Shown piece after piece: positions 45,329-47,353 of a stretch of DNA of 64,000 bases (position 1 is the stretch's first letter; each line of letters begins with the position of its first letter). The DNA lies in NCBI RefSeq assembly GCF_004799035.1, contig NZ_MWIO01000046.1, positions 1 to 64,000 of the forward strand, in the 5' to 3' direction. The notes beneath the pieces were generated by a model. It searched no databases, had not been told where the DNA came from, and was given only the letters and a program-made list of their open reading frames with translations. The translations under genes were made by a program, and so were the position numbers. This DNA comes from Rhodanobacter lindaniclasticus. GTDB taxonomy: Bacteria; Pseudomonadota; Gammaproteobacteria; Xanthomonadales; Rhodanobacteraceae.

Positions 45329-46412
<1,084 letters not shown>

Positions 46413-46414
46413 TT

Positions 46415-46704
46415 AAGGCAACGCTGCTCAAGTATCACCACCGTCACCCACCCTCTCTGTTCGCAGACCACAGGGCCGTCGACGAAGGCAGACTGGCCGT
46501 CTGTCGAGGCGGCGGACCGAAGGTATGCGAACAGAGAGGGTGGGCCTCAACGTGTTGAATCTGAAATGATGAGGTGATGACTGGAAGGCCCGCAGGCGAT
46601 GCCGCGCGGCTTGGCAAGACAGCCAGTCTTGCCGGCGCCACGCAGCACCACCTGCGGGCCTTCCAGTCATCATGACGGCGGCGATACTTGATCAGCGTTG
46701 CCTT
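46415..46704 (-). repeat. 290-nt cloverleaf-like nested inverted repeat between rsmD and coaD
   Basis: An outer pair of 32-nt arms (46415-46446 and 46673-46704, 29 of 32 matched) encloses three hairpins lying edge to edge. Hairpin A is 46447-46544 (98 nt, 19-bp perfect base stem CCCACCCTCTCTGTTCGCA). Hairpin C is 46545-46574 (30 nt, base CCTCA/TGAGG). Hairpin B is 46575-46672 (98 nt, 22-bp perfect base stem, with an 8-bp GGCAAGAC stem near its tip). No base is left over at any junction. On the minus strand two of the three outer mismatches become U-G pairs, so an RNA in the rsmD-coaD direction would fold best. The right arm contains the rsmD stop codon. I do not recognise the element. Confidence 0.85.
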
Positions 46705-47279
46705 GACGGAAGCGAACGCCGATAGAGCGCAAAACGCACCTCGCCGGCCTGTCCCTCGCGATGCACCGACCAGTTCGGCGGCAGCCCGGGGACACCGGCG
46801 CGGGGCGATTCGACGTAGATCAGCGCCTGCGCGGCCAGCCAGCCGCCCGCTTCCAGTTGCCCGGCCAGGGGCGCCCACAGGTCGAGCGAAAACGGCGGGT
46901 CGAGGAAGACCAGATCGTGAGCCTGCGCTGCCCCGCGCAGGAAAGTCGTCGCATCCGCCGTCGTCACCACCGCGGAGGTCAGCCTGAGCCGCGCCAGGTT
47001 CGCGCGCAGCGCCTGCGCCGCCTGCGCGTCGCGCTCGACGAACTGCACGCTGGCCGCACCGCGCGAATACGCCTCGATGCCCAACGCGCCGGTGCCGGCG
47101 CAAAGATCCAGGCAGCGCGCACCGGCGATCACCGGCGCCAGCCAGTTGAACACCGTCTCGCGCACGCGCGCCGGGGTCGGCCGCAGGCCAGGCAGTTCCG
47201 GCACCAGCAGGCGCGAATTGCGCAGGTTGCCGCCGATGATGCGTACCTGGCCGGGTGCCGGCCTGCGGCCCGCGCTCAC
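46692..47279 (-). CDS. rsmD: 16S rRNA (guanine966-N2)-methyltransferase
   Basis: This 195-aa SAM-dependent enzyme methylates G966 of 16S rRNA. It shows VRIIGGNLRNSRL and LRPTPARVRETVFNWL at the N-terminus, the SAM loop CLDLCAGTGALGIEAYSRGA, and catalytic motif FLDPPF. The last four codons and the TGA lie inside the right arm of the folded repeat, so the repeat supplies the C-terminal residues. It diverges from ftsY, the usual order. Confidence 0.96.
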   Translation of the reverse strand: MSAGRRPAPGQVRIIGGNLRNSRLLVPELPGLRPTPARVRETVFNWLAPVIAGARCLDLCAGTGALGIEAYSRGAASVQFVERDAQAAQALRANLARLRLTSAVVTTADATTFLRGAAQAHDLVFLDPPFSLDLWAPLAGQLEAGGWLAAQALIYVESPRAGVPGLPPNWSVHREGQAGEVRFALYRRSLPSRQR

Positions 47280-47353
47280 GTGTCCTGGCCCTCAGCTGGG
47301 AGTACGGGTCGGAGTGTTAGCATGCCGCCCATTGTCTTTGAATCGTCCCGGTC

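Follow-up and report, generated by a model that had tools for sequence, protein, structure and literature searches.

An element between rsmD and coaD of Rhodanobacter lindaniclasticus, best explained as an IS5-type MITE with a conserved hairpin core

In Rhodanobacter lindaniclasticus, the genes rsmD and coaD are separated by a stretch of DNA that can be folded into a four-armed structure, and the question raised by this locus is what kind of element it is. The window in which it lies comprises 64,000 nt (positions 1 to 64,000 of contig NZ_MWIO01000046.1), and a sequence-only reading of the window had suggested either a mobile, cruciform-forming DNA or a structured RNA that sets coaD expression. 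In our view, the best explanation, to which we give a probability of about 0.87, is that it is a non-autonomous IS5-type MITE in which the core of one hairpin (hairpin 1) has been kept, and paired as an RNA would be, across elements with differing ends. On this reading, what was first seen as a conspicuous fold becomes a defined mobile element, one for which a mobilising enzyme can be proposed.

Layout of the element and its insertion at the end of rsmD

The 290-nt cloverleaf described at 46415-46704 was confirmed. Outer arms of 32 nt each (46415-46446 and 46673-46704; 91% complementary) enclose hairpins of 98, 30, and 98 nt with no spare base between them, and the base stems of the two longer hairpins (A and B of the sequence-only reading) are indeed perfect over 19 bp and 22 bp, respectively. 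The two A-C mismatches reported for the outer stem, which become U-G pairs in minus-strand RNA, are also present, as is a third mismatch, C opposite T. Since 2 nt at each end of this interval belong to a target duplication, the element proper spans 46417-46702 (286 bp). Its sense orientation was set by the hairpin-1 core and corresponds to the minus strand of the window. Read in that direction, it comprises a 5′ terminal inverted repeat starting with GGCAACGCTGATCAAGTATC (46673-46702), the 98-nt hairpin 1 (hairpin B; 46575-46672) with its 72-nt core (46588-46659; 96.1 bits with core model R1), a middle 30-nt hairpin with a 5-bp stem (46545-46574), the 98-nt hairpin 2 (hairpin A; 46447-46544), and a 3′ terminal inverted repeat ending in ...CTTGAGCAGCGTTGCC (46417-46446). 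The predicted fold of the minus-strand RNA has an energy of -224.9 kcal/mol (z -17.6; 0 of 100 shuffles were equally good), and that of the plus-strand DNA of the element has a z of -15.3. The only ORFs within the element are mechanical ones of at most 81 aa, none of them transposase-sized, and in a search of 45900-47300 against Rfam, none of the six weak matches obtained reached its gathering score; five of them were to miRNA models.

The element lies between rsmD (PF03602; 46692-47279, minus strand) and the next gene in the same direction, coaD (PF01467; 45822-46382, minus strand). It is bordered by TTAA at 46413-46416 and, at 46703-46706, by TTGA on the plus strand (TCAA on the minus strand), a second copy of the target with one base changed. 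In four relatives (L294, L296, L297, and L299) the corresponding site is empty and holds a single TTAA, in the context CGCTTCCG-TTAA-GC. The sequence-only reading had noted that the element reached into the end of rsmD, and this proved right: because the insertion occurred at a TTAA overlapping the end of the gene, the last codons and the stop of rsmD now lie inside the terminal repeat. Comparing the rsmD C-termini with and without the element, as had been proposed, gave RRSLPSRQR before the stop codon in the window and RRALPLS in the four empty-site relatives. The insertion also widened the gap between rsmD and coaD, which from the coordinates would be ~25 nt without the element, to 309 nt, so that the changed gene end and the changed spacing are both explained by the element.

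Similar sites were found elsewhere. Of 18 copies with target duplications, 7 had exact duplications, 8 had one mismatch, and 3 had two, and the flanks were mostly TTAA or CTAG, that is, YTAR tetranucleotides. When the flanks were joined and used as a query, many genomes of the genus gave matches that spanned the junction. When 16 copies were compared base by base with relatives (20 pairs), a clean single tetranucleotide without the element was seen in a relative for 9 of them; for the other 7, the empty site was diverged or unclear, with no clean target. A YTAR target can itself supply a stop codon (TAG or TAA), and insertion at gene ends therefore spares the reading frame. In keeping with this, it is our uncounted impression that co-oriented upstream ORFs, crudely called, often stop exactly at the start of the element (many loci within L119-L198).

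Dispersed copies and a candidate mobiliser

The element of the window was matched in 21 of 60 genomes, including its own (E <= 0.001), in some of them by short stretches only. Full-length copies are ~93-96% identical and are dispersed in six genomes (G001, G007, G028, G031, G032, and G033), with the exception of a copy in G028 that occupies the same rsmD-coaD site; in G032 and G001 they lie on two and four contigs, respectively. We refer to the subfamily of the window as A1, and to a diverged one (~70-80%) in other genomes as A2. Not all copies are complete. The window's own genome (G000) carries a second, shorter copy without hairpin 1 (G000:C36:55547-55727), and this form, like others at L064, L065, and L068, has its breakpoint near the base of that hairpin and looks like a deletion. 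One-end remnants in G001 and G007, of 26 nt (L086; flanks ATAA and TTAA) and 29 nt (L087 and L088; TTAA on both sides), are probably deletion products as well. No match to a 310-nt query was found in a plasmid collection. The proposal made from the sequence had hung on there being further copies with compensatory changes, and both were found; its suggestion of mobility is borne out by the dispersed copies, the empty sites, the 4-bp YTAR-like duplications, and the matching ends of IS5-family insertion sequences.

The candidate partner transposase matches NF033581 (IS5 family; 309 bits, with a cut-off at 140), as well as the Pfam models DDE_Tnp_1 and DUF772, and insertion sequences of this family are ~1190 bp long. 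At E <= 1e-20, the transposase was found in 24 of 97 genomes of the family and 11 of 45 of the genus, with 0 matches in the window's own genome. In G026, 12 of 14 transposase matches carry the MITE-like ends GGATGCTCTGATC, flanked by, for example, CTAG, TTAA, TTAG, or CTAA, and many have YTAR on both sides. The element of the window has the ends GGCAACGCTGATCAAG... and ...CTTGATCAGCGTTGCC, the former being characteristic of subfamily A1. One end of each of two insertion sequences (the right end of L330, and an end of L246) is identical to that of subfamily A2 over 18 of 18 nt (GGATGCTCTGATCTATTC); in L330 there are two candidates for the right end, which lie 136 bp from each other and are alike. 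In a third insertion sequence, L318, the left end, GGCAACGCTGAATAAGT, is of the window type (15 of 18 nt, i.e., 3 mismatches) and the right end is GGATATGCTGAACAAGT, so that a single insertion sequence combines A1-like and A2-like ends. The match is thus weaker for A1, for which it comes from L318, than for A2, and among the matches listed when a pattern list from 233 family genomes was judged by eye, no insertion sequence had an A1 end at each terminus. The transposase gene of L246 (G033), whose insertion sequence has A2 ends, is broken.

Other results bear on how closely the two kinds of element are tied. G026 has 14 transposase matches yet no match to the hairpin core, and the numbers of insertion sequences and MITEs hence do not track one another. 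PF05598 genes are absent from several copy-rich genomes, and ends like those of A2 were present at 2 of the 11 loci found. For a further type of end (family B; GAGCCTGTT...), matches were obtained in 20 of 97 family genomes scanned; among the matches listed, inward-facing pairs of these ends lie ~180-270 bp apart, with no insertion sequence recognised there. The target duplication motif of IS5 is given as YTAR in the accessible text of one report (PMC10359306). We class the element as an IS5-type MITE because it shares these YTAR targets and because matching ends occur on IS5-family insertion sequences. We infer that it is mobilised in trans: a DDE transposase of the IS5 family, supplied by another element, would bind the ends GGCAACGCTGATCAAG... 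and ...CTTGATCAGCGTTGCC and insert the element into a YTAR tetranucleotide. Comparison with the empty sites shows that the event in the window was an insertion into the TTAA overlapping the end of rsmD, with duplication of that TTAA.

Pairing of the arms and strand signature of the hairpin-1 core

In an alignment of 29 full copies (14 of A1 and 15 of A2), 93.1% of the cells pair, compared with 83.6% in shuffles, and two-sided changes occur in 49 of 117 pairs, compared with 31.9 in shuffles; many of these changes, it should be said, reflect the one split between A1 and A2 (14 versus 15 rows). For the inner part of hairpin 2 the support is poor: two-sided changes are present in 2 of 14 pairs, and 82.2% of the cells pair. 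A further distinction came from the mismatches that can be tolerated in RNA on one strand: G-T outnumbers A-C by 132 to 6 in hairpin 1, compared with 58 to 61 in hairpin 2 and 42 to 17 in the terminal arms. When 79 distinct cores were oriented by their loop pattern, there were 371 G-T and 13 A-C, counts that are uncorrected for descent. Of the 31 core pair columns, 24 contain G-T and 8 contain A-C, and leaving out the six commonest G-T columns still gave 109 to 11. Orienting by model score instead gave 392 to 17 (84 cores). The terminal arms of 56 elements, in contrast, had 32 G-T and 26 A-C; these were the distinct ones of 80 loci, the others being duplicates or below the arm threshold, and the perfection of the arms is partly by construction, since they were picked for pairing.

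That G-T is kept and A-C avoided in the core, and not in the arms, suggests that one strand of the core is under selection, which probably acts on it as RNA. The core would then function as an RNA hairpin, single-stranded DNA of that strand being a less likely substrate, and the symmetry of the terminal arms is read as a DNA-level property. Covariation in a palindromic mobile element should in this manner be split into a DNA part (the arms) and an RNA part (the core).

An alternative is that no structure is selected and that all of the pairing, two-sided changes included, arose as imperfect palindromes were corrected at the DNA level during replication; template switching is a mechanism for such correction. 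It would account for arms that stay paired in spite of large sequence differences from copy to copy, including copies in a single genome, for their lack of strand bias (32 to 26), and for the deletions that break close to the base of hairpin 1, and it may well be right for the terminal arms alone. As an account of the whole element we consider it unlikely, however, as the retention of G-T without A-C on one strand of hairpin 1 (371 to 13, and 132 to 6) is left unexplained, and two U-G pairs persist uncorrected in 25 and 21 of the 29 copies.

Within the IS5-type MITE, hairpin 2 is probably an inverted, decayed copy of hairpin 1, a reading for which the support is mixed. In 11 of 85 elements, model R1 detected a weaker second core on the opposite strand, at a distance of 90-140 nt from the first, and hairpin 2 of A1 copies has the loop AGACTGGCCGTCT on the opposite strand; on the other hand, a pairwise alignment of the two hairpins beat all 300 shuffles in only 2 of 7 copies.

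Model R1 (72 nt) was built from 18 sequences; a second model, R2, mixed sense and antisense rows and was left out of all results. With R1, the core was found in 31 of 45 genomes of the genus and in 22 of 200 genomes, representing 12 of 69 genera, of an order-wide sample. In a phylum-wide sample it was found in 2 of 398 genomes, one of them the window's own, and since 12 candidates per genome were scored, the misses there are weak evidence. The core pattern occurs in at least 120 stretches of named genomes, and 80 listed stretches come mainly from Rhodanobacter, Dyella, Xanthomonas, Pseudoxanthomonas, and Luteimonas; the matches listed also include Plastoroseomonas, an alphaproteobacterium, and one Eremiobacterota MAG. 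No match to the core pattern was found in viral contigs. The element in the contig binned as Eremiobacterota (L143 1540-1850) is family-A-like, and the contig may be mis-binned. In Plastoroseomonas hellenica (L133 4920-5120 and L139 4090-4290), single copies of the same core are found with very different ends, beside CTAG.

Core-bearing elements indeed differ in their ends (GGATGC..., GAGCCTGTT..., GGCGTGTC..., GGGCCTGTT..., and GCGGGATCGACATTCAGC...), and it is our uncounted impression that many of those with differing ends adjoin YTAR. Shorter forms with a single core occur at L084, L133, L139 (folded), and L153 (163 bp). In another genome, G075 (L105 and L355-L365), 22 of 24 candidates scored were core matches and fell into groups of equal score, which suggests recent expansion; no mobiliser was found for it. 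The core itself was not found in 55 loci with the IS5 transposase or its relatives (E <= 0.1). A tentative extension of these observations, which we hold to be possible rather than probable, is that IS5-type transposases in the Xanthomonadales have spread a conserved RNA, the 72-nt core having been recombined among unrelated-looking ends, kept under one-strand selection, and doubled in inverted form. If that were so, inverted doubling would yield one sense hairpin from read-through in either direction, and the element would be a mobile non-coding RNA that is functional for itself or for its host, and not dead MITE filler.

Role beside rsmD and coaD, and relation to known systems

The strong fold on the transcribed strand, and the fact that the two genes would be ~25 nt apart without the element, could also be taken to mean that a cis-acting RNA evolved in place to set coaD expression. 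We consider this very improbable. In four other genomes of the genus the end of rsmD is present and the element is not, and these empty sites by themselves largely refute it. Copies elsewhere lie in both orientations. Among 110 loci with crude ORF calls, some of which duplicate one site, an ORF was present on both sides at 76, across the core at 15, and on a single side at 14, and 5 were without the core pattern; the orientations relative to the flanking ORFs at the 76 loci were close to random (++27, --19, +-17, and -+13), which lends no support to a fixed role in cis. Within 46300-46800, we found no sigma-70-like promoter and no intrinsic terminator (a GC stem followed by a T run). Of the earlier suggestion of a structured RNA that sets coaD expression, the RNA-like constraint on hairpin 1 thus stands, given its G-T/A-C asymmetry, and the dedicated role at coaD is not supported, given the near-random orientation of copies elsewhere. 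The inserted MITE may plausibly affect the rsmD-coaD message: the hairpin-1 core would sit in a read-through transcript of the two genes and might there either shield the upstream message or retard read-through.

Still less probable is a palindrome of the REP/BIME type, mobilised by a Y1 (RAYT) transposase. The element resembles REP/BIME repeats in being palindromic, multi-copy, and dispersed between genes, but its 286 bp, long terminal repeats, 4-bp target duplication, and IS5-like ends do not fit, and we know of no target duplication made by REP/BIME with RAYT. According to the accessible text of one source (PMC3733652), REP/BIME units are 20-40 bp long and carry GTAG/CGTC tags. That the locus is an assembly artefact has a negligible probability: perfect palindromes can be misassembled, but the same insertion occurs in a second assembly (G028), and copies are dispersed in other assemblies (e.g., on two contigs of G032).

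The sequence-only reading knew of no described element with this plan. A literature search, which covered titles and the openings of abstracts, with subscription journals mostly outside its reach, retrieved no published description of the layout; the general kind, the MITE, is known. IS5-family insertion sequences are like the element in their ends, YTAR target, and 4-bp duplication, and differ in being ~1190 bp long with a transposase gene, whereas the element is 286 bp without one, and in that the hairpin core was not found at their loci. As far as the accessible portions of the sources describe them, bacterial MITEs including NEMIS, RUP, ERIC, and YPAL (PMC3733652; PMC2229807), and QMITE2 of Coxiella (PMC10969869), are like the element in being short, non-coding, and gene-adjacent, with terminal repeats and a stable RNA fold; the element differs from those accounts in its four-armed plan, in which two hairpins are probably an inverted pair, and in a core that is common to differing ends and bears a one-strand G-U signature. 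The CIR repeats of Caulobacter, as portrayed in the accessible part of one paper, likewise have two long inverted repeats that form two arms and a linker, but are ~110 bp long, carry GANTC, and are only partly MITE-like (PMC2229807). The presence of a one-strand core in elements with differing ends raises the question of whether bacterial MITEs carry functional RNA. What is new here, within a kind of element that is itself known, is a group of IS5-type MITEs with a conserved, strand-specific hairpin core.
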